Below, piece by piece: positions 19,099 through 32,172 of a stretch of 32,172 nt of DNA (positions within the stretch are counted from its first letter, which is position 1; each line of letters opens with the position of its first letter). The DNA comes from an uncultured Erysipelotrichaceae bacterium (GTDB lineage: Bacteria; Bacillota_I; Bacilli_A; Erysipelotrichales; Erysipelotrichaceae): the NCBI GenBank assembly GCA_947036815.1, contig CAMQRS010000019.1, forward strand, positions 1 to 32,172, read 5' to 3'. A program made the position numbers and the translations under genes. The notes beneath the pieces are model-generated. The model made no database searches. It was not told where the DNA came from and saw only the letters and a program-made list of their open reading frames with translations.

Positions 19099-21039
19099 GT
19101 GAAAAAAAATAAAATTATTAAATTTTATGAACTACTTTTTCAAGAAACTCAAATTAAAAAAACAGAGTATTTTGCACAACATTTAAATGTATCAACAAAA
19201 ACAATTTTTAATTACTTAAATGAACTAGAGTATCAAATTCAAAATTACAATTTAAACATATGTCGTAAAACAGGTGTTGGACTATTCGTTGAAGGGTCGC
19301 AACAAGAAAAAGAGAAGTTTATGAAGTTCATCATCAATGAGGGGATTCATACTTCTAATAGTATAGAAAGAAGAGAACTCATAAAAGAAAAACTAGTTAT
19401 GATGGATGAAACGATATCAATTCGAAAATTATCTGAAGAGTTTAATGTAAGTAAAACATCCGTAGTAAAAGATATAGAAATTATTGAAGAAAGTTTAAGA
19501 AAAAAAGAGTTATCACTGAATAAATCAAAAAAAGGAACGGTCATTACTGGTAAAGAACAACGAATTAGAAGTGCAAAACGAAGATTCATCTACAATCGAT
19601 TGAAAAATGATTTAAAACTAGAATATGATGTTAACGTTGAACAATGTGATGTAGTACTTAATCTTTACTTTAATGATACATATATAAGCATCGCTAAAGA
19701 AATGGTTGCGTATATAAAACATGAATTGAATTTTGAGATAGGATTAAACTTTCATATTCAAATATTAATACAATTTACGATATTCATAGAGAGGATTGCT
19801 AATGGGCATCAGCTAGTGAGTACTCCCAATAGACCAGTTACTTCAGAGTTACATGTATTGCAAACATATCCGATAGCACAATCGCTATGTAAGGGAGTAG
19901 AAAGTCAAGTCGGTGTAGAGATACGAGAGATGGATATTCGATGGATTAACGCAAGAATTGCTGGCGTATACCATGAACGAAAAAATCTTGAATTATTTAC
20001 TCATAAAGCAGAAGTGACAAGCTTAGTATTAGAGTTAATCGAGTCTGTAGAAGATGTATTTAATTCAAATTTAAGAGAAGATAAAATTTTAGTTAATGGA
20101 TTGGAAAAGCATTTTGTACCAATGATATCAAGAATTACTAATCATATAACAGTAAATAATCCCTTTATTGAACAAATAAAGGAACAATATACTGCCATGT
20201 TTAGTGTAGTGTGGCTTGCTTCATCAATTATAGAAAAGAGATTGGGAGTTCAACTATCAGAAGATGAAATAAGTTTTGTATTGATTCATTTTCAAGGAGC
20301 TATGGAACGTAAAAATTTATCAAAAAAAATTGCGGTAATTAGTAACTATGAAACAGCGCAAACTCAGTTAATTGTATCACGAATTAAAACACAATTGCCT
20401 ACCTTTGATGTTCTTGAATCATTTCATATACAAGAGATAAAAGAAGAGGATTATGATACGTTTGATTTAATAATATCAACTAGTGCGTTAAATCGATGCG
20501 CTACACCTATCATACAAATATCTCCAATCGCTTCTGATTCTGATATTCAAAAGATAAAAGATGTGTATGTCAAACTATTCGCAGAAAATAAAAGTAATAA
20601 ATATGTCAATTTATTAAAAGCATTAGATGAAGACAGCGTATGTTTGAAAAAAGATTTCAACTCTAGAGAAGAGGTTCTTCAGTACGCAAATGAAATACTT
20701 GTTAAGAAAGAGGTGATAAGCGAAGGCTTTTATGAATCTGTATTAGCCAGAGAAGCCATCTCAGCGACAGAACTTGGGCAAGGTATCGCAATCCCACATG
20801 GACTAGATAAATATGTTATTTATACGCAGATAGTTGTGATCACATTAAAAAATCCAATCATCTGGGAAAAAACAGAAGTGAACTTAATTTTTTTATTGGC
20901 AATAAACTTCGATAATAAAGTATTTTCAAAACAACTATTTAATAATATATATCATATAATTAATTCAGACAAACTAGTTAAAAAGATAGAGAAATGTAAC
21001 ACATATCAACAATTTATAACCCTATTAAAGGAAGAGTAA
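19099..21039 (+). CDS. PRD-domain transcriptional regulator with EIIB-like and EIIA domains (MtlR/BglG type)
   Basis: This 646-residue PTS-controlled regulator starts at GTG behind GAGG. Two helix-turn-helix regions lie near residues 5-75 and 90-160 (RKLSEEFNVSKTSVVKDIEII). Two PTS regulation domains follow, about 205-300 and 320-425; the second contains LVLIHFQ-like FVLIHFQGAMER. A degenerate EIIB-like domain (about 425-500) lacks a catalytic cysteine at its start, and a mannitol/fructose-type EIIA domain (about 510-646) has H567 in GIAIPHG. The second histidine typical of EIIA enzymes is missing, so this is a sensor domain. The PTS operon at 25.5-28.7 kb is the likely target, although an export module separates them. 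Confidence 0.9.
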   Translation: MKKNKIIKFYELLFQETQIKKTEYFAQHLNVSTKTIFNYLNELEYQIQNYNLNICRKTGVGLFVEGSQQEKEKFMKFIINEGIHTSNSIERRELIKEKLVMMDETISIRKLSEEFNVSKTSVVKDIEIIEESLRKKELSLNKSKKGTVITGKEQRIRSAKRRFIYNRLKNDLKLEYDVNVEQCDVVLNLYFNDTYISIAKEMVAYIKHELNFEIGLNFHIQILIQFTIFIERIANGHQLVSTPNRPVTSELHVLQTYPIAQSLCKGVESQVGVEIREMDIRWINARIAGVYHERKNLELFTHKAEVTSLVLELIESVEDVFNSNLREDKILVNGLEKHFVPMISRITNHITVNNPFIEQIKEQYTAMFSVVWLASSIIEKRLGVQLSEDEISFVLIHFQGAMERKNLSKKIAVISNYETAQTQLIVSRIKTQLPTFDVLESFHIQEIKEEDYDTFDLIISTSALNRCATPIIQISPIASDSDIQKIKDVYVKLFAENKSNKYVNLLKALDEDSVCLKKDFNSREEVLQYANEILVKKEVISEGFYESVLAREAISATELGQGIAIPHGLDKYVIYTQIVVITLKNPIIWEKTEVNLIFLLAINFDNKVFSKQLFNNIYHIINSDKLVKKIEKCNTYQQFITLLKEE

Positions 21040-21056
21040 ATCTCTTTCTTTTTTTA
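21027..21056 (+). terminator. Intrinsic terminator of the PRD regulator gene
   Basis: AAAGGAAGAG and CTCTTTCTTT pair across the stop codon and run into a long T tract. Confidence 0.8.
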
Positions 21057-21080
21057 TAGTAAGAAAAAAACATTGTTTAA

Positions 21081-21132
21081 AAAAGTAATTATATGACAAA
21101 AGTAACTATTATTTTATTGGATAGTGTATAAT
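21081..21132 (+). promoter_or_regulatory. Promoter with direct repeats before the helical-repeat regulator
   Basis: A perfect TATAAT lies at 21127-21132 with no good -35. In its place are direct repeats AAAAGTAATTAT (21081-21092) and AAAAGTAACTAT (21098-21109); the second ends about where the -35 should be. This looks like an activator-dependent promoter. Confidence 0.5.
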
Positions 21133-21160
21133 GAATGAAATGAATTTAAGGGGTGTTTGT

Positions 21161-22360
21161 ATGAACGATAAGATATTGTTAGAATATTATAGAAAAAAAT
21201 ATAAGTTAAGCTATGAATCACTGTTATATAATTCAAGTGAAAACACAAGAATTTGCAGTGTAAAAACTTATAAAAATATCATTCAAGGTCATGAAGTTAG
21301 ACATTCAGATAAAATTATAATGGAGTTATATGATCGAATCAATAAAACAAGAGTAAGTAATGTACAAGTAGATTACTCAAGATTGAGCACGTTGATTGAA
21401 TATGAAGATGAAAAAAAAATACGAAAAGAACTTGAATGTCTATTAGAATATATGGAGACGTATAAGGATAACGCCTTGTATGATTGTCATTATAATGGAA
21501 TTAATATTATTTATCAATTTTATAAGTTTCGAGAATATCCTTTAAAAGAGGTAACCTTAGAATATTTAAGTATCAAAGATTTGTTGGATGAAACACTAGT
21601 TTCTTTATTAATGATAATCTTTTCTTATGCGTATTGTATGGGTATTTATTATATCGATTATACTAAAGTTTATGGATTTGAACCAAGACATTTATTAATG
21701 AAACTAAATTGTTTTGTTCATTATATCGATGTAAAAAATGAAGGAAAAGCATATGCAATATCTACGGAGATAGATAAGCTAATAAAGGAAGATAATTATT
21801 TACTTAAGATTAGATACTATCCTAGTAAGATATATTTATATAGAAAAATGGAACTGGATTACAAAACAGTAGAGGATGAATTAAATGGTATTTTAATGGA
21901 TGGTGACCTTGATATTTCTAATAAAAATAGAAATATCGCATTAGCAAATCAAGCGATTTATTCTATCTTACGTAAAGAGTATGAAACAGCGCTTTATAAT
22001 TTGATGAAAATGGAAGAAGTAGAAGAGAAACGAAAACAACAAGTAGAGTTATATATTCTTTTTTGTAAGACCCATTTAGGTTTAGAAATAGATTATGAAA
22101 AAAATATACTTGCAACAGATAAGGTTATAGTAGGTGCTACCTCTGATTTATATAACTATTTCTTAAACACACAAATAAAATTATCTGTTAAAAATAAAGG
22201 CTTACATAGAATTGCGAAAAAACATCTTGAAAAAACAGATTCATTATATCTATTTATAATAGAAGAAGAATTATATAGAAATTGTTCATTGCTTAAGTGT
22301 TATAAGGATTATTATGATTTTAGGGAAATCAAAAGTTCGATTTTGAATAAAAAGTATTGA
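21161..22360 (+). CDS. Putative RRNPP-like regulator: HTH plus helical repeats
   Basis: This 399-residue protein has a short XRE-like helix-turn-helix at its start (about 3-60; LLEYYRKKYKLSYESLL, then CSVKTYKNIIQG). The remainder is all-helical, rich in Tyr, Leu, Lys and Glu, and looks like tetratricopeptide-type repeats. This is the layout of peptide-sensing regulators such as Rgg, PlcR or AimR, although I cannot assign it to any of them. The start at 21161 has AAGGGGTG upstream; an earlier ATG at 21131 overlaps the -10 box and is rejected. It precedes the exporter genes on the same strand and is the best candidate to bind the dyads at 22373 and 28965. Confidence 0.65.
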   Translation: MNDKILLEYYRKKYKLSYESLLYNSSENTRICSVKTYKNIIQGHEVRHSDKIIMELYDRINKTRVSNVQVDYSRLSTLIEYEDEKKIRKELECLLEYMETYKDNALYDCHYNGINIIYQFYKFREYPLKEVTLEYLSIKDLLDETLVSLLMIIFSYAYCMGIYYIDYTKVYGFEPRHLLMKLNCFVHYIDVKNEGKAYAISTEIDKLIKEDNYLLKIRYYPSKIYLYRKMELDYKTVEDELNGILMDGDLDISNKNRNIALANQAIYSILRKEYETALYNLMKMEEVEEKRKQQVELYILFCKTHLGLEIDYEKNILATDKVIVGATSDLYNYFLNTQIKLSVKNKGLHRIAKKHLEKTDSLYLFIIEEELYRNCSLLKCYKDYYDFREIKSSILNKKY

Positions 22361-22372
22361 TGGATAACTAAA

Positions 22373-22393
22373 ATTATGTAAAACCGAAACAAT
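22373..22393. promoter_or_regulatory. Dyad motif, copy 1
   Basis: ATTATGT, spacer AAAACCG, then AAACAAT. The right part belongs to a 15-mer AAACCGAAACAATGA (22381-22395) that is identical to one at 28973. The left arm matches the inverse of the right arm at 5 of 7 positions. It lies 58 bases upstream of a -10-like TATACT (22439-22444) that would serve the 713-residue membrane protein gene. Confidence 0.6.
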
Positions 22394-22512
22394 GATTAAT
22401 AATTGATTAAGGTTTTTAATAGTATATTAAATCAATGTTATACTTTAGATAGAAGAAGCGTACATAGTATTTGGATAAAGTAATTAGGTATGTTTATATT
22501 TTATATTAAACG

Positions 22513-22559
22513 ATTTAACCAATACAATATATTCGTAACACAAGTGTAGGTGGTTAAAT
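22513..22559 (+). other. Leader inverted repeat
   Basis: ATTTAACC (22513-22520) and GGTTAAAT (22552-22559) are perfect inverted arms 31 bases apart in the transcribed leader, 40 bases before the start codon. They could fold the leader RNA or bind a regulator. A 19-codon ORF from 22490 overlaps this region but has only a weak ribosome-binding site. Confidence 0.35.
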
Positions 22560-22598
22560 TAACTTCCTGCATTTTTTGTATAAAAAGGAGAATTAAAA

Positions 22599-24740
22599 AT
22601 GAAAAAAATATCGATTATCATGTCAGGATTATTAGCTTGCTTATTTTTTGTATCAATGTTTTTTTCGATGGGAAATGATAACTTTAAGAACGCATTAAAT
22701 GCTAATGGTTATTTCGATAAGTTAAATTTTGAAACGGATAAGGGAATCTCCTTGATTTTAAACAATCAAATTATTGAAAATGAAGCTTATCAAACACAAT
22801 TATATGAAATTTTTAAAAAATATGATGTTGTGGCAACTGGTTTTCTTCAATCGGAGAATATTCATGCTCAAAGTAATTCTGTTTATATTTATGCAACAAG
22901 TGATATTTATGTAGATGACATACAAACAATTAATAATGAACGAATCCAATTTTCAAATGAGGATGAAAATCGTTATTATACATTAGATACTAACAATAAT
23001 GAAAATGCTATTTTAATCGATTTACTGAATCCTTTATTTTACGACTATGTAGTACCTTATGAATATCATCCATTTCATCAAGCAATCGGAAATAAGATTC
23101 CCACTCTGTACACGATTGAGGGAATTAGTGTTGAAGAATTTGAAAATGAAATTAAAGGAACAGATTTTAGAAATTATATTGAAAATTTAAGCGTACTTGA
23201 TGAACACGGTACATTTACAATAATTAAGGATGAAGGAATTCAGTTTGATCCAAATAATATTTTATTCATCTGCATGGGATTAGCCTGTGTGAGTTTAATG
23301 ATGTTAATTGTAGTGAATACTATTAAACATAAAAAATACATAGCAGTATGCCGACTAAACGGAGTAGGAAAAGTAAAAATATTAAAGAATAAATTTTTAT
23401 TGTTTTTATTAAGCTTAGCTCTTTCGTATGCATTAGTTCAAATATTACTTCTACTTATATTTGGTGGAGGATTCAGAGAAGCAAGTGAAGCATTTTACCA
23501 AATTATTGTCTTATCTATTTTAGGCTTTTTAGGAGTGATTGTACTTCTAATTGTATTTGTATATGTTTATTTATCACTGTATCGTAATTTTCATGACTTA
23601 AAACAAAATAAAATTAATTCATTTAGTATTTATTTGAATATTATTGTTAAGACACTTGCAACTGCGATATTAATGGCACCATTTGTTTCCATTGTTCCAG
23701 ATTTTTACATACAAGCTAACGAGGCGAAGCTACTTTATGAACACAAGATAGAGAATGAAAATAGGTATGCAATTCGTGTTTTTGCAGATAAATATACGAA
23801 TGAAATAGGAGGCGAAGCAGCCGTAGATATCAATAGAGATATTATCGAGCATCTTTCTAATGAATATGAGGGAATGTATTATAACCTGTATGATTGGGTT
23901 GTTCAATCTGAGATAAGCAAGGATGTTTATGACCCTGTCACAGGCACTATGGATCAAAGCTATGAGGTTCCTTTTATATATGTAAATCGTAATTATTTGA
24001 ATGATTACCCCGTAATAGAACATGGGACAAATAATCAAATCGATATTGATTCATTATCCGGAGGTGTCTTACTTGTTCCTAAGCGATATGAAGAAAGTGC
24101 ATCATTAGAAAGTTATAAACAATGGTATGTGTATCAAGAAGTTATTTTTGTTGAAGACTTCATACAACAATTTAAAACATTAGACTTTAGAGAGGTGGAA
24201 GATAACGCTAAATATATTAAAAATCCTATTGTATATGTATGTGATGAAAACATAGCGGAAACACTAAATGGCTCAGGTTCCTATTACTTCAATACTACAA
24301 ACTTACCTAAGGTATATGATGAATTAAGTGAAATGGGCTATAAAGACAATGTAGATTTATACTCTTTATATCCAGAAGTACAGATGGCTTTTCATAGACA
24401 TCTTGTTACTTTCTCATCGATGTTATTTCTATTAATAGGATATTTATCAGTATATTTAGTATTTGTATACCAAAGCATTTATGTATACTTAGATGTATTT
24501 AAAAAGAAAATATCAATACAGTATTTGAATGGATATTCATATATAAAAAGGTATCATGAGATATATATTATTAATGCTTGTGCATACATTATCGCTGGAA
24601 TAATTGCATCCTTAGTGTATCACGTTGAGATAAAAGGAATTGTGTTATATATTCTTTTCTTTGGTTGTATGGAAGTCTTGTTTGAGGCTTATCAAATAAG
24701 AAGATTTCAAAAGAAAGAAGGCATGAATGCATTAAAATAG
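22599..24740 (+). CDS. Bacteriocin-associated integral membrane protein (FtsX-like permease)
   Basis: This 713-residue membrane protein has the layout of the bacteriocin-associated integral membrane or putative immunity family seen in lactococcin 972-type clusters. It is two similar halves. Half one has a membrane anchor at about 5-24, an extracytoplasmic domain at 25-218, and three membrane segments near 219-241, 265-287 and 300-328. Half two has an anchor at about 347-365, an external domain to about 608, and three membrane segments near 610-632, 655-675 and 678-695. AAGGAG precedes the ATG, and the ATPase gene follows 10 bases after its stop. Together they should form an ABC system that exports a peptide or gives resistance to one. 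Confidence 0.75.
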   Translation: MKKISIIMSGLLACLFFVSMFFSMGNDNFKNALNANGYFDKLNFETDKGISLILNNQIIENEAYQTQLYEIFKKYDVVATGFLQSENIHAQSNSVYIYATSDIYVDDIQTINNERIQFSNEDENRYYTLDTNNNENAILIDLLNPLFYDYVVPYEYHPFHQAIGNKIPTLYTIEGISVEEFENEIKGTDFRNYIENLSVLDEHGTFTIIKDEGIQFDPNNILFICMGLACVSLMMLIVVNTIKHKKYIAVCRLNGVGKVKILKNKFLLFLLSLALSYALVQILLLLIFGGGFREASEAFYQIIVLSILGFLGVIVLLIVFVYVYLSLYRNFHDLKQNKINSFSIYLNIIVKTLATAILMAPFVSIVPDFYIQANEAKLLYEHKIENENRYAIRVFADKYTNEIGGEAAVDINRDIIEHLSNEYEGMYYNLYDWVVQSEISKDVYDPVTGTMDQSYEVPFIYVNRNYLNDYPVIEHGTNNQIDIDSLSGGVLLVPKRYEESASLESYKQWYVYQEVIFVEDFIQQFKTLDFREVEDNAKYIKNPIVYVCDENIAETLNGSGSYYFNTTNLPKVYDELSEMGYKDNVDLYSLYPEVQMAFHRHLVTFSSMLFLLIGYLSVYLVFVYQSIYVYLDVFKKKISIQYLNGYSYIKRYHEIYIINACAYIIAGIIASLVYHVEIKGIVLYILFFGCMEVLFEAYQIRRFQKKEGMNALK

Positions 24741-24750
24741 GAGGAATCAG

Positions 24751-25392
24751 ATGAAAGCACTAGAAGTGAAGAATATAAATAAAAAATTTGGTGAAATAGA
24801 AGTATTAAAGGATTTTAGTATGGATGTAGAAGAAAATGAAATGATCTGTATTATTGGGGAAAGTGGATGTGGAAAAAGTACCCTATTAAATATTATTGGA
24901 TTACTTGAAAAAGCAGATAGTGGAAGTATTTTGTATGATGGAGAAAAAGGACATGCTCCGTATACAAGAGGAGCAGAGCACTTACTTCGGTATGAGATAG
25001 GATACTTGTTTCAAAATTTTGCTTTGGTAGAAGATGATACGGTGTATAATAATTTAAAAATAGCTTTAGAATATAGTAAAGCAGCGAATAAAAAGGAATT
25101 AATTAGCGAGGCATTAGAAGAAGTAGGGTTAACAAGAATGGAAAATAAACAAGTGTTTAAGTGTTCAGGAGGAGAACAGCAAAGAATCGCAATCGCAAGG
25201 CTATTATTAAAACCATGTAGAATAGTCTTAGCAGATGAACCTACAGGAAGTTTGGATCCACATAATAAAGGTATTATTTTACAGTTATTATGTAGATTTA
25301 AAGAAAAAGGAAAAACTTTACTAATTGTGACACATGATTCAGATGTGGCAAATATTGCAGATCGTGTAATAGAATTAAAAAAAGTAAGATAG
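24751..25392 (+). CDS. ABC transporter ATP-binding protein, lactococcin 972 export type
   Basis: This 213-residue cytoplasmic ATPase partners the preceding permease. Walker A is GESGCGKST (36-44), the Q loop is Q88 in YLFQNFALVEDDTV, the signature is CSGGEQQ (138-144), Walker B is RIVLADE (157-163) and the H loop is H195. The YLFQNFALVEDDTV stretch is characteristic, from memory, of the lactococcin 972 bacteriocin-export subgroup of MacB-like ATPases. AGGAGG sits before the ATG, in the same operon as the permease. A terminator follows. It might also energise the half-permeases at 29.9-32 kb, which have no ATPase of their own in the window. Confidence 0.9.
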   Translation: MKALEVKNINKKFGEIEVLKDFSMDVEENEMICIIGESGCGKSTLLNIIGLLEKADSGSILYDGEKGHAPYTRGAEHLLRYEIGYLFQNFALVEDDTVYNNLKIALEYSKAANKKELISEALEEVGLTRMENKQVFKCSGGEQQRIAIARLLLKPCRIVLADEPTGSLDPHNKGIILQLLCRFKEKGKTLLIVTHDSDVANIADRVIELKKVR

Positions 25393-25416
25393 GTAATTAT
25401 ATATAGTATATTGATT

Positions 25417-25440
25417 AGAGAGCGATGCTCTCTTTTTTTT
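25417..25440 (+). terminator. Intrinsic terminator of the exporter operon
   Basis: AGAGAGC and GCTCTCT form a 7-bp stem with a GAT loop and a T run of eight. Confidence 0.85.
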
Positions 25441-25487
25441 GTTGTGTATGTCTTTTATTTTCCAGAAGTAATGGAATAGCATTGATA

Positions 25488-25516
25488 TTTGCACGATTAG
25501 AAATATGACTTATGAT
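25488..25516 (+). promoter_or_regulatory. Promoter of the PTS operon
   Basis: TTTGCA (25488-25493) and TATGAT (25511-25516) are 17 bases apart, about 55 bases before the EIIA start. I see no catabolite-response palindrome close to it. Confidence 0.5.
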
Positions 25517-25570
25517 AGGTGTGTAAGATAAATTACATTAAATACATGAATAGAGAAAGGAGAAAAAAAT

Positions 25571-26008
25571 ATGTTTGAACAGTGTTTAACGCAAGTTTGC
25601 GAAGAAAATTTTAAAGACAAAATAGAAGTCATTACGTATCTAGCAAACCTTGCTGGAGAGAGTAAAAAGATCTCAAACGTTGAAGATTACATTAAGGCTG
25701 TATTACTGAGAGAAGAAATAGTATCAACTGCCATTGGATATGGTGTAGCCATTCCACATGGCGAATCAGACACGGTGAATGAAACATTTGTTGGATGCTT
25801 AAAATTAACAAAGCCAATCTTATGGGATGGGGTTGAAACATCATTAATATTTATGATTGGTGTATCCACTGAAAATAGAGAAAAAGAACATTTGAAAATA
25901 TTAGCGATGTTAAGTAGGTCTTTAATGAGAGAAGAATTTAGAACCAGATTGAATAATGCAAAAACGAGTGAAGATTACTTTGGTATAATTAAAGAGTTAG
26001 AAAACTAG
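25571..26008 (+). CDS. PTS EIIA component, fructose/mannitol type
   Basis: This 145-residue phosphocarrier takes phosphate from HPr and passes it to the EIIB below. The phosphorylated histidine is H63 in GVAIPHGE, and the second conserved histidine is H107 in EKEHLKILA, so it should be active. It is the first gene of a four-gene operon (EIIA, EIIB, EIIC, GatZ-like), with AAAGGAG before the ATG. The sugar is not evident from EIIA. Confidence 0.93.
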   Translation: MFEQCLTQVCEENFKDKIEVITYLANLAGESKKISNVEDYIKAVLLREEIVSTAIGYGVAIPHGESDTVNETFVGCLKLTKPILWDGVETSLIFMIGVSTENREKEHLKILAMLSRSLMREEFRTRLNNAKTSEDYFGIIKELEN

Positions 26009-26021
26009 AAAGAGGAAATCA

Positions 26022-26336
26022 ATGAAGATAGTTAGTGTTACTGCCTGTTCAACTGGAATTGCCCATACATATATGGCGCAAGAAGCAATTGAGCAAGAAT
26101 GTAAAAAAAGAGGATATGAAGTAAAAGTTGAAACCCAAGGTGGAATGGGAATTGAAAATGAAATTAGTGAAGAAGAAGTAGCAAGTGCAGATGTTGTGTT
26201 GCTAGCGATTGGAATTGGAATTGAAGAAGCTGAACGTTTTGAAGAAAAAGAGGCGCAAGGGAAAGTGCTTACGGTAGATCCATCTGTGGTAATTAAGGAT
26301 CCAGTTGGAATTATTGACAAATTAGAAAAACTATAA
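26022..26336 (+). CDS. PTS EIIB component, fructose type
   Basis: This 104-residue cytoplasmic domain transfers phosphate from EIIA to the incoming sugar. The phosphocysteine is C9 in SVTACSTGIAHTYMA, the typical fructose-family EIIB opening. It lies 13 bases after the EIIA stop, and AGAGG provides the ribosome-binding site. In this operon the three domains are separate proteins rather than a fusion. Confidence 0.94.
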   Translation: MKIVSVTACSTGIAHTYMAQEAIEQECKKRGYEVKVETQGGMGIENEISEEEVASADVVLLAIGIGIEEAERFEEKEAQGKVLTVDPSVVIKDPVGIIDKLEKL

Positions 26337-26348
26337 AAGGGGAAAATT

Positions 26349-27389
26349 ATGTTTAAAACAATAAGTAAAGATTTATTAAAAGCATTTAATACCGGAGTAT
26401 CATATTTCTTACCAGCAGTAGTAGTTGGTGGGGTATTCTTAGCAGCAGCATTAGCAACTGGAGATGCTGGAGAAGGTGGAATGAGCGTTACATCACCATT
26501 CTTCGCAAATTTATTAGCCATCGGATCAGCAGGGTTTGCCATGATGATTCCAATGCTATCAGGATACATTGCATATTCATTAGCAGGGAAGCCAGCACTA
26601 GCGCCAGGGATGATTGCAGGATACATCGCAAATAATCCAATTGGAGAAAATAATGTTTCAACAGGATTCTTAGGTGCAATGATTGTAGGGATTTTAACTG
26701 GATATATCGTAAAATGGATGAAAACATGGAAAGTTAGTCCAACGGTTAAATCAATTATGCCGGTATTAATTGTTCCTATGTTCTCAACATTCGTAGTATG
26801 TATGGGATATATTTACATCTTAGCAAATCCATTAGGATACATGATGACTGGATTAACATCAATGTTGTCAAATCTTTCAGGAGGTAGTGCATTACTACTA
26901 GGATTAGTAATTGGTGGGATGACAGCAGTAGATATGGGAGGTCCTATTAATAAAACAGCTTCTGCATTTACAATGGCATTAATGGCAGAAGGTATGTTTG
27001 GTCCAAATGGAGCATTTAGAATTGCAGTCGCAATTCCACCGCTTGCAATGGCAGTATCAACATTCATTTCAAGAAGAAAATATACAACAGATGAAAAACA
27101 ATTAGGAGTAACAGCAGGGTTTATGGGATTGATTGGAATTACTGAAGGAGCTATTCCATTTGCGGTTAAGGATATTAAACGAGTATTACCAGCAATTATT
27201 ATAGGTTCAGCAGTAGGAGCAGGATTAGGAATGTTACATGGAGTAGAATGTTTTGTACCTCATGGTGGATTGATTGTTATTGCAGCAGTAAATAATCCTA
27301 TGTGGTATGCAGTGGATATGTTCATTGGAGTAGCAGTAGCAGTAGCGATATTACATTTCACGAAACCAAATATCGAAACAAGCAAATAA
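26349..27389 (+). CDS. PTS EIIC component, fructose type
   Basis: This 346-residue membrane permease forms the sugar channel of the PTS. Eight or more hydrophobic segments are visible. The family signature regions are GYIAYSLAGKPALAPG (near 76-91), DMGGPINKTA (near 195-204) and ITEGAIPFA (near 258-266), which contribute to sugar binding and phosphotransfer. It starts 12 bases after EIIB behind AAAGGGG. The length is that of stand-alone fructose-family EIIC. The imported compound is probably a hexose or hexitol of the fructose or tagatose type, given the next gene. Confidence 0.93.
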   Translation: MFKTISKDLLKAFNTGVSYFLPAVVVGGVFLAAALATGDAGEGGMSVTSPFFANLLAIGSAGFAMMIPMLSGYIAYSLAGKPALAPGMIAGYIANNPIGENNVSTGFLGAMIVGILTGYIVKWMKTWKVSPTVKSIMPVLIVPMFSTFVVCMGYIYILANPLGYMMTGLTSMLSNLSGGSALLLGLVIGGMTAVDMGGPINKTASAFTMALMAEGMFGPNGAFRIAVAIPPLAMAVSTFISRRKYTTDEKQLGVTAGFMGLIGITEGAIPFAVKDIKRVLPAIIIGSAVGAGLGMLHGVECFVPHGGLIVIAAVNNPMWYAVDMFIGVAVAVAILHFTKPNIETSK

Positions 27390-27462
27390 ATAATTATATA
27401 AATATCGTGGGGATAAATTATATGATTGATAATAATAAATATAATGAAAGTGGGAAAAAGAT

Positions 27463-28743
27463 ATGAATAAAAAGTTACCAATTAAAAGCGTAGTAGAAGG
27501 AATGTTAGAATTACAAAAAACGGGGAACAGTGCGACATTATTAGGGATAGGACCAATGTCTTCAAACTTAATGCAAGCAAGTTTTGAATTAGCGAAAGAT
27601 TATGACTTTCCGTTAATGTTCATTGCGAGCCGAAACCAAGTGGATAAAGATGAACTTGGTGGAGGATATGTAAATGCATGGAATCAAGAACGATTTAATC
27701 AGGATATAAAAATAATTGCTGATGAAGTAGGGTTTGATGGTTTATATTATCTATGTAGAGATCATGGTGGACCATGGCAAAGAGATCAAGAACGTAATGC
27801 TCACTTGCCACTAGAAGAAGCAATGAAATTAGCAAGAGAATCATACTTAGCAGATATTGAAGCAGGATTTGATTTACTTATGATAGATCCAACTAAAGAT
27901 CCATTTGAAATGGGTAAAGTAATGCCATTGGACGTTGTATTAGAAAGAACAGTTGATTTAATCGAATTTTGCGAACATGCAAGAGTAGAAAGAAACTTAC
28001 CTGAAATAGGATATGAAGTGGGAACAGAAGAAACAAATGGTGGATTAACTTCAACAGAAAAATATCAAGAATTCATTGAAAAATTAGAAGTTGAACTGAC
28101 AAAAAGAAGTTTACCGATGCCAACCTTCATTGTAGGACAAACAGGAACGTTAACTAGAAAAACAGAGCAAGTAGGAACATACAACTTTAAAAATGCTTAT
28201 GATTTAGCACAAATGGCGAAAAAATATAAAGTGGGATTAAAAGAACATAACGCTGATTATCTTGATGATATTACATTGCTTGAACATATGCCTGCACAAG
28301 TAACAGCAAGTAATGTTGCTCCACAATATGGTACAGAAGAAACAAGAGCATACTTAAAATTATGTGAGTTAGAACAAATATTAAAAAAAGAAGAATTAAT
28401 TGAAGAAGCATCTAATTTGAAAGAAGTTCTATTAATTAAAGCAATTAAAACAGAACGTTGGAGAAAATGGATGGTAAACGAACAAAAAGACTTAACAGTA
28501 GACCAAATTTTAGCTAGTACAGAATTATCGTTAGATATCTTAGATATTTCAGGTCATTATGTATTTAATGATACAGAAGTGAAAAAAGAAATTGAAGTTC
28601 TATATGCAAACTTAACAAATCATCATGTCGATGGAAAAAGATTTGTGGTTGACCATATAAAAAGACCATTACAAGCATATGCAGAGTGCTATAACTTGAA
28701 AGGAATTACAAGTAGAGTACGAGAAGTATTAGCTAATAAATAG
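27463..28743 (+). CDS. GatZ/KbaZ-like tagatose-bisphosphate aldolase subunit
   Basis: This 426-residue protein belongs to the GatZ/KbaZ family, which in enterobacteria is the non-catalytic subunit that supports class II tagatose-1,6-bisphosphate aldolase (GatY/KbaY). The family regions are MFIASRNQVD, GGGYVNAWNQ, LCRDHGGPWQRDQERN, MIDPTKDP and GYEVGTEETNGG, and the protein is full length. No GatY/KbaY and no phosphofructokinase-like gene are in the window, so it may act alone, with a distant partner, or on a different phosphosugar. A 73-base gap holds a 14-codon ORF whose TGA overlaps this ATG. A terminator ends the operon. Confidence 0.88.
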   Translation: MNKKLPIKSVVEGMLELQKTGNSATLLGIGPMSSNLMQASFELAKDYDFPLMFIASRNQVDKDELGGGYVNAWNQERFNQDIKIIADEVGFDGLYYLCRDHGGPWQRDQERNAHLPLEEAMKLARESYLADIEAGFDLLMIDPTKDPFEMGKVMPLDVVLERTVDLIEFCEHARVERNLPEIGYEVGTEETNGGLTSTEKYQEFIEKLEVELTKRSLPMPTFIVGQTGTLTRKTEQVGTYNFKNAYDLAQMAKKYKVGLKEHNADYLDDITLLEHMPAQVTASNVAPQYGTEETRAYLKLCELEQILKKEELIEEASNLKEVLLIKAIKTERWRKWMVNEQKDLTVDQILASTELSLDILDISGHYVFNDTEVKKEIEVLYANLTNHHVDGKRFVVDHIKRPLQAYAECYNLKGITSRVREVLANK

Positions 28744-28747
28744 CATG

Positions 28748-28777
28748 AAAAAGAAGGTTCGAATGAACCTTCTTTTT
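28748..28777 (+). terminator. Intrinsic terminator of the PTS operon
   Basis: AAAAAGAAGGTTC and GAACCTTCTTTTT form a perfect 13-bp stem with a GAAT loop, directly after the GatZ-like gene. Confidence 0.9.
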
Positions 28778-28964
28778 GTTTGTTAGAGAAGATCACCTAC
28801 CATAATAACTGAATGTATTCATACAATAGATATCTACACTGATCTTTTATGTTGAAGGACTAAGAGACAGTATTTACAATTTGCTACGTTGTTAGATCGG
28901 ATTTACTGGTTTAAAAGTCATAAAAAGTTCGTTTATGAAAATAAAACACGGATGAATGGCTTGA

Positions 28965-28985
28965 ATTGTGTGAAACCGAAACAAT
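28965..28985. promoter_or_regulatory. Dyad motif, copy 2
   Basis: ATTGTGT, spacer GAAACCG, then AAACAAT. The arms are inverted at 6 of 7 positions. It includes the 15-mer AAACCGAAACAATGA (28973-28987) found also at 22381. It lies 47 bases upstream of a perfect TATAAT at 29020-29025, 11 bases (one helical turn) closer than in copy 1. Confidence 0.6.
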
Positions 28986-29120
28986 GAATTCAAATTCGCA
29001 TTTACATAATATTTTAATGTATAATTTACTTAATTAAATAGAAACAATTCGAATTATATGCAAACTATTTTGTAATAAGAATAGTGAAATTATTGAAAAT
29101 GAGAAAGAGAAGAAAAAAAT

Positions 29121-29738
29121 ATGAATATAAAACTTATGATAAGAGTGTGTATATCAATGATTCAGTATTTAATGATATCTGCAATGGGGTGTTTGGGTTT
29201 TGTGTATATTGACAGAAATATTACGATAGCGATCGGTCTATGGGTCAGTGCATTACTTGGTTTCGTATTTTATATGTATTGCGACTATAAATATTATATT
29301 AAGATGCAACAAGATAAGTGCTTCTATAGTAAATCTTCTGTATTTATTATTATCTGTATGGCTACTATTCTTTTATACTTCACGTATATGACTCAAGTCA
29401 GACATTTTCCACTAGCTAATTTAAATACGGATCAAATTAAAACAATACATGTATCCGTGGAGAATGGTGAAACGTATTTATTATGTGATGAAGAAATGGA
29501 GAAACTAGTAGCACTGCTTCAAGGCATAGAACATGAAGAAGAACCACATTACTATGGAAATACTTCTGAAATATTAACGTTCACAATCTCGAAAAATAAA
29601 TTCACCACTTCTGTTATTTTAGATGCAGCTGGAATTACAATTAATAATGAACGTATTTCACCAAGTGAAGAATATTTCTATGAACTCTTTATTTATGGAA
29701 CTGATATTATTGATGCTCATTTATTAGAGGAAGGATAG
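29121..29738 (+). CDS. Small membrane protein with extracytoplasmic domain, unknown
   Basis: I do not recognise this 205-residue protein. Three hydrophobic segments lie near residues 9-29, 33-53 and 72-91, followed by about 110 hydrophilic residues with an alternating strand pattern (IKTIHVSVENGETYLLCDEE, then LTFTISKNKFTTSVILDAAG), predicted to be outside the membrane. It is the first gene of the second membrane module, downstream of dyad copy 2, and may be a sensor, immunity or accessory subunit for the two half-permeases. The ribosome-binding site (GAGAAG) is weak. Confidence 0.65.
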   Translation: MNIKLMIRVCISMIQYLMISAMGCLGFVYIDRNITIAIGLWVSALLGFVFYMYCDYKYYIKMQQDKCFYSKSSVFIIICMATILLYFTYMTQVRHFPLANLNTDQIKTIHVSVENGETYLLCDEEMEKLVALLQGIEHEEEPHYYGNTSEILTFTISKNKFTTSVILDAAGITINNERISPSEEYFYELFIYGTDIIDAHLLEEG

Positions 29739-29863: not shown

Positions 29864-30919
29864 ATGCTAAACGCTTATAAAAAGAATATCATTATATTTC
29901 TTTTATTTATTTTGGTGAATGTATTTACACTTCAAATGCTAGGAAATATGGTGGCAGTTGCGAATCAAAATAAAGATAGGGTATATAATTTATCTCAAGA
30001 CTACATTACGATAAGCAAAGAAGAATTATTGAATAGTGGGGTTGCGTTAACTGATATCATAGATATAGAAAAAGATGAAATCATGGTATTAGCAACAACA
30101 AAAGACCAAGTCGATATTGAACGTATCGCAATTTTTGATCCGAAAGGAATACAATACAAACTTGCTAACGGAGAAAAAAACAAATTATTTAGATACTTCA
30201 ATACTGAAGATTATTTAACAGGAGCTAATGTTGCTGTATATAATACAAATTCGAGTGAAACTTCAGCAGCTCAATTAAATAAAGTAGCTAGTGAATATCA
30301 TTTGGATGAAGTACTCTCTGTGATGCAAACAGGTTTATTAGTTCCACCTGTAAATATTGCAGAAAATTCAGATATTTTGTTAAATGAATCTTTAGATTTT
30401 TTATTTGTGAATTTATTTGTACAAGAAATAGAGAATATAGAAATGTTGTATATTGATTTTTATGATTCAAACACAAGGAATGAAGTCCTAAGTCGTATCG
30501 ATAGCTTAGGTATTATGATTACCTATCCGAAAACAGAAACACTACTATTTGCAAGTGTATTAGCATCAATGGCAGATAAAAATATAATTATAGTATTTGA
30601 ATTTATAATTCTGATAAGTGTGAATATATTATATTTCCTAATTGCTATTATTCATTCTTCTCATTATAAAGAATACATGGAAGTGAATGAAGCTAATAAT
30701 ATAAATGTTAAACAATATATTTTACTAAATACACTAATGTATTACATTGTTGCAGGTGGATGCGTGTATTTTATGATTCCGTTGTTGAGTGATGACATAA
30801 TATATTATTTAAATATTTCATATGCATTTGTGAAACTATCAATTCTGTATTTAATAGTACATATAGTACTCGCAAATCGCATTTATCGTCGTTATGGAGG
30901 TACATGTGATGTTAAGTAA
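29864..30919 (+). CDS. FtsX-like half-permease, N-terminal-half equivalent
   Basis: This 351-residue membrane protein has an anchor at about 8-28, an extracytoplasmic domain of roughly 210 residues, and three membrane segments near 239-262, 285-306 and 313-338, the MacB/FtsX-type half-permease topology. This equals one half of the 713-residue protein at 22599. No ribosome-binding site stands at the proper distance from the ATG at 29864. AAAGGAG at 29814-29820 is too far away, and the in-frame upstream sequence is open to 29825 without a start codon. The next gene overlaps its end by 11 bases. No ATPase gene is in this module within the window. Confidence 0.7.
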   Translation: MLNAYKKNIIIFLLFILVNVFTLQMLGNMVAVANQNKDRVYNLSQDYITISKEELLNSGVALTDIIDIEKDEIMVLATTKDQVDIERIAIFDPKGIQYKLANGEKNKLFRYFNTEDYLTGANVAVYNTNSSETSAAQLNKVASEYHLDEVLSVMQTGLLVPPVNIAENSDILLNESLDFLFVNLFVQEIENIEMLYIDFYDSNTRNEVLSRIDSLGIMITYPKTETLLFASVLASMADKNIIIVFEFIILISVNILYFLIAIIHSSHYKEYMEVNEANNINVKQYILLNTLMYYIVAGGCVYFMIPLLSDDIIYYLNISYAFVKLSILYLIVHIVLANRIYRRYGGTCDVK

Positions 30920-31994
30920 AGAACGAATTAAACAAAATTTAAAATTGGGATTACGTGACTGTAAAGATTATAAAACAATAGTAATTACAAGTATATTAGC
31001 ACTAAGTATCACTGGTTATTTTGTAGGAGTTGTGGCTCTTAGTGTTAGACAAGAAATTAAAAATAATGAGTATGTAAATGGATACACAGATAATTTCTAC
31101 TATGTTGCACAAAGTCAGGATTATATGACTCGGGAGCAAACGGAGGAAGTAATAAACTTTATTTATGATTCTGGATATTCGAGTACTAAAATAGAAACTA
31201 GACACGATGGCATGCTGTTACCTATGTATTTAGTACTAGGTAATGAATCATATGAAAGCGATTCTGAGTTTGGTACACTTTATCTAAATAGTGGAGATAT
31301 CGCATACTATGAACAATTGGGATTAGATTATGAGATTGAAGAAGTAAGCGAAGATATGAAACTAATAATTGATTATTGGATTATTGAAGAAGTAAGCATA
31401 CCCATCCAGTTTGTAAGTAAAGAGGATTTTTATGAACATATTAACTTTGAACAAATAGACGGTACAGAAAGATTACATTATAAATCACAATTAGTGATTG
31501 AAACCTTAGTGAATAATTTCAAAATTGATGCAGATGTATCAGTTGATACATTTAAACAAATATTTGAAGGTACGTGTGTGTATGTAGATACCCATGAAGA
31601 TACGAAACTATCACAATTGCGTATGCAATTCATTAATTCCTATCATTTAACGAATATATTACCTGTCTTATTTATTGTTTTCATTAGTATGATGATTTTA
31701 TATAAAGCAATGCGTTGTAAAATATTAAAAGAATACGGGATGAATCCAGTGTCTAGATCACAAATGAAAGATATGTATGTACGTATTGGTTCGTTGATAT
31801 TTGTGGTAACTTGTATGTCAGGTGTGCTAGCTTTACTATTAATTACACCTATGGCTCTTGCAAGTTTGGTTTACTCTGAAACGTTATTATATATAGGAAT
31901 CTACACACTGCTAATAACTATCATTTTAATTATTGGATTATTTATGAATGCCTATTCATGGGGTTACTTGAAAAATATGTTTAATAAAAAATAA
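30909..31994 (+). CDS. FtsX-like half-permease, C-terminal-half equivalent
   Basis: This 361-residue partner of the preceding protein has the same topology. A cytoplasmic lead is followed by an anchor near 25-47, an extracytoplasmic domain to about 245, then three membrane segments near 250-267, 293-315 and 325-347. The start at 30909 is chosen because GGAGG ends eight bases upstream, inside the previous gene; an ATG at 30894 lies before that site. The 11-base overlap implies coupled synthesis and a heterodimer. With its partner it totals 712 residues, almost the size of the fused 713-residue protein. Peptide or antibiotic export or resistance is plausible but not shown. Confidence 0.72.
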   Translation: MLSKERIKQNLKLGLRDCKDYKTIVITSILALSITGYFVGVVALSVRQEIKNNEYVNGYTDNFYYVAQSQDYMTREQTEEVINFIYDSGYSSTKIETRHDGMLLPMYLVLGNESYESDSEFGTLYLNSGDIAYYEQLGLDYEIEEVSEDMKLIIDYWIIEEVSIPIQFVSKEDFYEHINFEQIDGTERLHYKSQLVIETLVNNFKIDADVSVDTFKQIFEGTCVYVDTHEDTKLSQLRMQFINSYHLTNILPVLFIVFISMMILYKAMRCKILKEYGMNPVSRSQMKDMYVRIGSLIFVVTCMSGVLALLLITPMALASLVYSETLLYIGIYTLLITIILIIGLFMNAYSWGYLKNMFNKK

Positions 31995-32125
31995 GAGTGA
32001 AATTGAAACGATTAATTTTTTTATAATAATTAGCTTATAAAGAGATGCTCTTAAGTGGATACATAAAGAGTGTAGAATAAATTATGAATAGGAACAGAAA
32101 ATAAAAAAACCTGCACGATGATATG

Positions 32126-32165
32126 TACCCTCTTTACTGGACAAACCAGTGAGGAGGGTATTTTT
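32126..32165 (+). other. Hairpin at the right edge: possible IS end or leader of a truncated gene
   Basis: TACCCTCTTTACTGG and CCAGTGAGGAGGGTA pair over 15 bp (two G-T pairs) with an ACAAA loop, followed by five T residues. This could be an intrinsic terminator for the membrane module. However, AGGAGGG inside the 3' arm is spaced seven bases from an ATG at 32166, the last readable codons of the window, so the hairpin could mask the ribosome-binding site of a new gene. The sequence TGTACCCTCTTTACTGGACA (32124-32143) is reminiscent of IS3-family (IS150-group) terminal repeats. The window ends too soon to decide. Confidence 0.45.
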
Positions 32166-32172
32166 ATGCGTT

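Follow-up and report, generated by a model that had tools for sequence, protein, structure and literature searches.

A 24-bp element shared by two membrane-protein operons adjoins a gene for an RRNPP-type regulator in an uncultured Erysipelotrichaceae bacterium

Contig CAMQRS010000019.1 (assembly GCA_947036815.1) of an uncultured Erysipelotrichaceae bacterium, whose 32,172 nucleotides we analysed in full and refer to as the window, carries two copies of a 24-bp element, each placed just upstream of the predicted promoter of a separate transcription unit encoding membrane proteins. The first unit (module 1) encodes a permease and an ATP-binding cassette (ABC) ATPase, the second (module 2) three membrane proteins. 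A gene adjacent to the first copy encodes a 399-aa protein that, by its modelled structure, is a regulator of the RRNPP type. We lean, with some reserve, towards the interpretation that the element is the binding site of this regulator, which would activate both operons.

Results

Copy 1 of the element lies at 22372-22395 (AATTATGTAAAACCGAAACAATGA), beginning 11 bp past the stop codon of the regulator gene, and copy 2 at 28964-28987 (AATTGTGTGAAACCGAAACAATGA), 5' of a gene for a 205-aa protein, both on the forward strand. A prior sequence-only reading of this DNA had noted the 15-mer AAACCGAAACAATGA in both places, and it is indeed exact at 22381-22395 and 28973-28987, with no other occurrence in the window at up to two mismatches. 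The ungapped match between the copies is wider, at 24 bp (AATTRTGTRAAACCGAAACAATGA), with 22 of 24 positions identical and both differences A/G transitions, and the second-best site for the 24-mer in the window has 7 mismatches. The assembly comprises 1,675,750 bases in 68 contigs, the window being the whole of contig C19. Across it, the 22- and 23-mer forms of the element with up to three mismatches gave two matches, both of them the known copies, against 1 and 0 for the backwards control. The 15-mer with up to two mismatches is at background level (10 matches against 15 for the control), and its remaining eight matches all fall within open reading frames (ORFs) of at least 80 codons. The motif is absent from the viral contigs searched.

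Such a pair might arise by chance, as one of the many words that recur in AT-rich intergenic DNA, picked out by eye. When the window's intergenic DNA (4164 bases in all) was shuffled, the plain match score was reached in 39 of 2190 shuffles (1.8%), which, together with the background level of the 15-mer, speaks for this explanation; but the composition-weighted score was reached in only 2 of 3019, the match runs over 24 bp with two transitions, both copies stand just 5' of a -10 box and the other near matches are all in ORFs. Shuffling the two specific intergenic regions alone reached the score once in 21,900. We consider chance improbable; the pair of sites is real and specific, yet not past all doubt on the plain score over the whole window. 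The internal symmetry of the element is less clear. The dyad of 7-base arms around a 7-base spacer that had been described is present in imperfect form, with 5 of 7 arm pairs in copy 1 and 6 of 7 in copy 2, and one of the two A/G differences, in the left arm, disrupts a pair; for these reasons dyad symmetry is poorly supported, and a direct repeat of period 6 (AAACC.GAAACA) fits the core about equally well.

Both copies precede a predicted promoter. Predicted promoter 1 (22416-22444, forward strand) reads TTAATA-17-TATACT, with the -10 box at 22439, a TG extension one base upstream of it and a -35 box that agrees with the consensus at 4 of 6 positions, whereas predicted promoter 2 has a -10 box (TATAAT, 29020-29025, forward strand) with no -35 box at 16-18 bp. 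The earlier claim that both promoters lack a good -35 box is therefore correct for copy 2 and not for copy 1. The distance from the start of the 15-mer to the start of the -10 box is exactly 58 bases at copy 1 and 47 at copy 2, as had been reported, and the difference of 11 bases is one helical turn, so that a bound activator could meet RNA polymerase from the same side at both promoters. Hairpins resembling intrinsic terminators follow the ATPase gene at the end of module 1 (25417-25433) and the GatZ-like gene at the end of an intervening phosphotransferase system (PTS) operon (28748-28777), both on the forward strand, and by these consensus features module 1, the PTS operon and module 2 form three units. 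In combination, the genome-wide uniqueness, the shuffles and the terminators lend good support to a shared, specific regulatory site before two separate transcription units. A third, autoregulatory site 5' of the regulator gene was considered and rejected, its best match being no better than shuffles, as was a box common to distant homologues, whose intergenic regions cannot be aligned and show conservation only within a genus.

The regulator gene (21161-22360, forward strand) encodes an XRE-type helix-turn-helix (HTH) domain (residues 1-63) followed by a tetratricopeptide repeat (TPR) domain of the Rap/NprR type. Its AlphaFold2 model has a mean predicted local distance difference test score (pLDDT) of 85, and structure alignment (VIA-align) placed Rap (Z 18.7) and NprR (Z 14.8) in the best rows, with helical repeats of the proteasome/LGN kind at 14.2 and below. 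A Foldseek search with the model returned nothing below E 0.001; its first matches included Rap, Rgg2, NprR, AimR and PlcR. An N-terminal profile built from 19 relatives matches the solved HTH proteins HipB (7e-5), PezA (3e-4), PlcR (7e-4) and 434 repressor (9e-3). Model and profile together thus identify the protein as an HTH and TPR peptide receptor of the RRNPP type, which bears out the earlier description of an HTH and helical-repeat regulator, and peptide binding would be expected to change its DNA binding. It belongs to an unnamed Erysipelotrichaceae clade, whose profile matches in 41 of the 316 genomes of the order searched; no match was found in plasmids. A paralogue (38% identical) on contig C1 of the same genome is followed, 106 bp downstream, by a 58-codon secreted-peptide ORF.

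The gene pair of module 1 resembles a bacteriocin-related transporter. The permease (22599-24740, forward strand; 713 aa) matches DUF1430 at 28.4 bits (cut-off 28.2) and TIGR01654 (bact_immun_7tm) at 47.2 bits, below the cut-off of 189, in an alignment covering 215 to 713. The ATPase (24751-25392, forward strand; 213 aa) matches TIGR03608 (L_ocin_972_ABC, "putative bacteriocin export") at 260.9 bits against a cut-off of 254.85, and the next-best relative that the genome encodes shares 38% identity with it. No bacteriocin precursor was found, there being no secreted small ORF between the regulator and permease genes or past the ATPase gene. By these family matches module 1 appears to be a bacteriocin-immunity or export cassette without a bacteriocin, and its function would be immunity or export. 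The same arrangement recurs in genome G029, the sole match in the assembled-contig search for the regulator, where the regulator gene is followed in turn by genes for a secreted peptide, a 114-aa secreted protein, a DUF1430-like permease and a TIGR03608-like ATPase (253.1 bits, slightly below cut-off). Two further regulator homologues (L120, L121) precede genes for TIGR03608-, MacB- or LolD-like ATPases and permeases. This recurrence of regulator homologues beside ABC cassettes is the best reason for assigning the site to the neighbouring regulator.

Secreted peptides accompany many relatives of the regulator. We defined a candidate peptide gene as an ORF of 30-70 codons that encodes a signal sequence, has a ribosome-binding site and lies no more than 600 bp 3' of the regulator gene, and scored the 27 regulators with enough downstream sequence, the window regulator included, against 130 other genes in the same loci. 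Such an ORF follows 15 of the 27 regulators and 2 of the 130 control genes, and the peptides are 38-58 aa long. Within the same 600 bp the window regulator has no small secreted propeptide gene, and because the gene found after many relatives is missing here, the regulator looks like an orphan receptor. A 19-aa ORF (MFIFYIKRFNQYNIFVTQV; 22490-22549, forward strand) lies between promoter 1 and the permease gene; it has a weak ribosome-binding site, is non-secretory and, from its sequence, could possibly encode a leaderless peptide.

Module 2 comprises, on the forward strand, genes for the 205-aa membrane protein (29121-29738), a 351-aa protein (29864-30919) and a 366-aa protein (30894-31994), none of them assigned to a family. 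Each of the two larger proteins has a single membrane segment near its N-terminus and about three towards its C-terminus. MacB/FtsX permeases show this topology, but the module 2 proteins have no FtsX or MacB match in Pfam or NCBIfam and none to the DUF1430 profile; the former label "FtsX-like" thus has the topology behind it and no profile match. That these proteins are split halves of a DUF1430 protein was likewise rejected, with no significant match. The 366-aa protein has no homologue in 273 family genomes besides its own and none in plasmids, and its single-sequence structure model was poor (pLDDT 44) and was not used. There is no ATPase gene in module 2 up to the contig end, which falls directly after the module in insertion sequence (IS)-like DNA (32050-32172) with an inverted repeat (TACCCTC...GAGGGTA). 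Contigs C58 and C22 were examined as a continuation that might hold an ATPase gene and were rejected, as the ends do not overlap. Contig C22 itself contains a second export-like cassette (L076 2469-6745) of a 174-aa secreted protein, two anchored proteins, an ABC ATPase and a permease-like protein, with no copy of the site.

Between the two modules lies a fructose-type PTS operon (25571-28743, forward strand; EIIA-EIIB-EIIC and a GatZ-like gene by family matches), and a PRD/EIIA regulator gene (19099-21039, forward strand) lies upstream of the RRNPP-type regulator gene. The sequence-only reading had proposed a regulon built around this operon. We conclude instead that the operon is a bystander and not part of the regulon: it lacks the site (closest match at 11 mismatches), is bounded by terminators of its own, and in two relatives (G164 and G239, the latter with one extra gene between regulator and EIIA) the PRD regulator homologue adjoins EIIA-EIIB-EIIC. 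In the window (19099-28743) the regulator-DUF1430-ATPase cassette sits between the PRD gene and EIIA, and from the arrangement in the two relatives it follows that the cassette interrupts a PTS locus. The region may for this reason be mobile, and the contig ends just past module 2 in IS-like sequence; both features would suit an origin of the shared element in the copying of one module's promoter to the other, by recombination or with the end of a mobile element, such that the identity reflects descent and not selection. The similarity ends sharply at the limits of the 24 bp, however, and the flanks and the -10 spacing differ, which makes such an origin very improbable.

Discussion

The arrangement described here suggests how the two modules might be controlled together. 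The regulator, probably acting with a small peptide taken up from outside, would bind the 24-bp element, activating the promoter of the permease and ATPase pair (DUF1430/TIGR03608) as well as that of the second operon. As an apparent orphan, it may respond to a peptide that comes from outside its own locus, either that of the paralogue on contig C1 or that of a neighbour strain. Several observations weigh against this interpretation. The symmetry of the element is poor for a site bound by a dimer, and no similar site precedes either the regulator gene itself, where 376 of 1000 shuffles equal the best match, or the peptide gene of the paralogue. The corresponding interval of homologues from other genera contains no AAACCGAAACAAT element; diverged specificities would account for this absence, which nevertheless lends the assignment no support. 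Additionally, the regulator's own sequence reaches no HTH model in Pfam or NCBIfam.

The absence of a site at the regulator's own promoter leaves room for the element to be a genuine shared site of another transcription factor, either a global CcpA-like protein or the PRD regulator, with the neighbouring regulator controlling something else. The core does hold a CG flanked by A-rich sequence, loosely resembling half a cre site, but by inspection the element departs from the cre consensus at three defining positions in copy 1 and at two in copy 2. Moreover, this genome has two sites, whereas many would be expected for a global regulator, and the PTS promoter, which the PRD protein would be expected to control, has none. 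On balance we judge the involvement of another factor unlikely, though worth keeping in mind.

Among known systems, the layout closest to that of the window is pneumococcal scbR-box-scbBC (streptococcin B; scbABC), in which the ComR-type ScbR lies directly upstream and the box, a strong palindrome, stands 20 bases before TATAAT (PMC11796350). Pneumococcus lacks the pheromone gene and about a quarter of its strains are without the bacteriocin, yet the scb promoter still responds to a peptide of the related Streptococcus pseudopneumoniae (PMC11796350). The window shares with this system an RRNPP-type regulator directly upstream, a box between regulator and promoter, a bacteriocin-immunity-type membrane protein with an ATPase, and the existence of versions without bacteriocin and without pheromone gene. 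It differs in its regulator, ScbR being of the ComR type, and in that its box is weakly symmetric and lies 32 and 43 bases from the -10 boxes, and the box is common to a second operon that has no ATPase gene. PlcR-PapR and NprR-NprX likewise combine an HTH and TPR receptor with several operons under one box, and there, as in relatives of the window regulator, the receptor gene has a small peptide gene of the Sec type behind it; unlike them, the window protein is unrecognised by Pfam and NCBIfam, has no adjacent peptide gene and is associated with a different box sequence. Module 1 resembles lactococcin 972-type cassettes (DUF1430/TIGR01654 and TIGR03608) in its permease and ATPase families and their order, but no precursor gene was found in the window and the TIGR01654 score (47) is far under the cut-off (189).

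These parallels invite a more far-reaching proposal, which we put forward as tentative: the orphan receptor would hear the peptides of other cells and switch on an immunity transporter, together with an ATPase-less permease operon that borrows the ATPase of module 1, and would belong to a branch of peptide quorum sensing in Erysipelotrichaceae that is as yet undescribed. The eleven families for which a survey with RRNPP_detector listed quorum-sensing-linked biosynthetic clusters do not include Erysipelotrichaceae (PMC10075063), and none of the papers in the library searched names RRNPP together with Erysipelotrich-. Our findings point to a group of peptide-receptor regulators, spread across this family, whose genes adjoin those of secreted peptides, and to the presence of the immunity-without-bacteriocin layout of pneumococcus in a distant group of Bacillota. 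The window offers a concrete set of two target promoters and a candidate box, so that regulator, box and peptide can be addressed together.

Small secreted-peptide ORFs stand right after RRNPP-like regulators at L016 (7931-8107, reverse strand), L017 (8824-8988) and L027 (7309-7473), with others 3' of the regulator genes of L114, L115, L118, L119, L124 and L126. Many of these Erysipelotrichaceae peptides have Cys or acidic C-termini, and together they look like an undescribed group of peptide signalling pairs. A conserved inverted repeat with a long spacer (GAGTTAAAGT ... ACTTTAACTC) occurs in both L029 and L109, which come from different species of the same genus, 5' of the -10 box of the peptide gene, a candidate operator for that branch. 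In genome G244 (L027 5920-16872), the regulator and a 54-aa peptide ORF are followed by a giant ORF of 3125 aa resembling a surface protein, which is possibly under density control.

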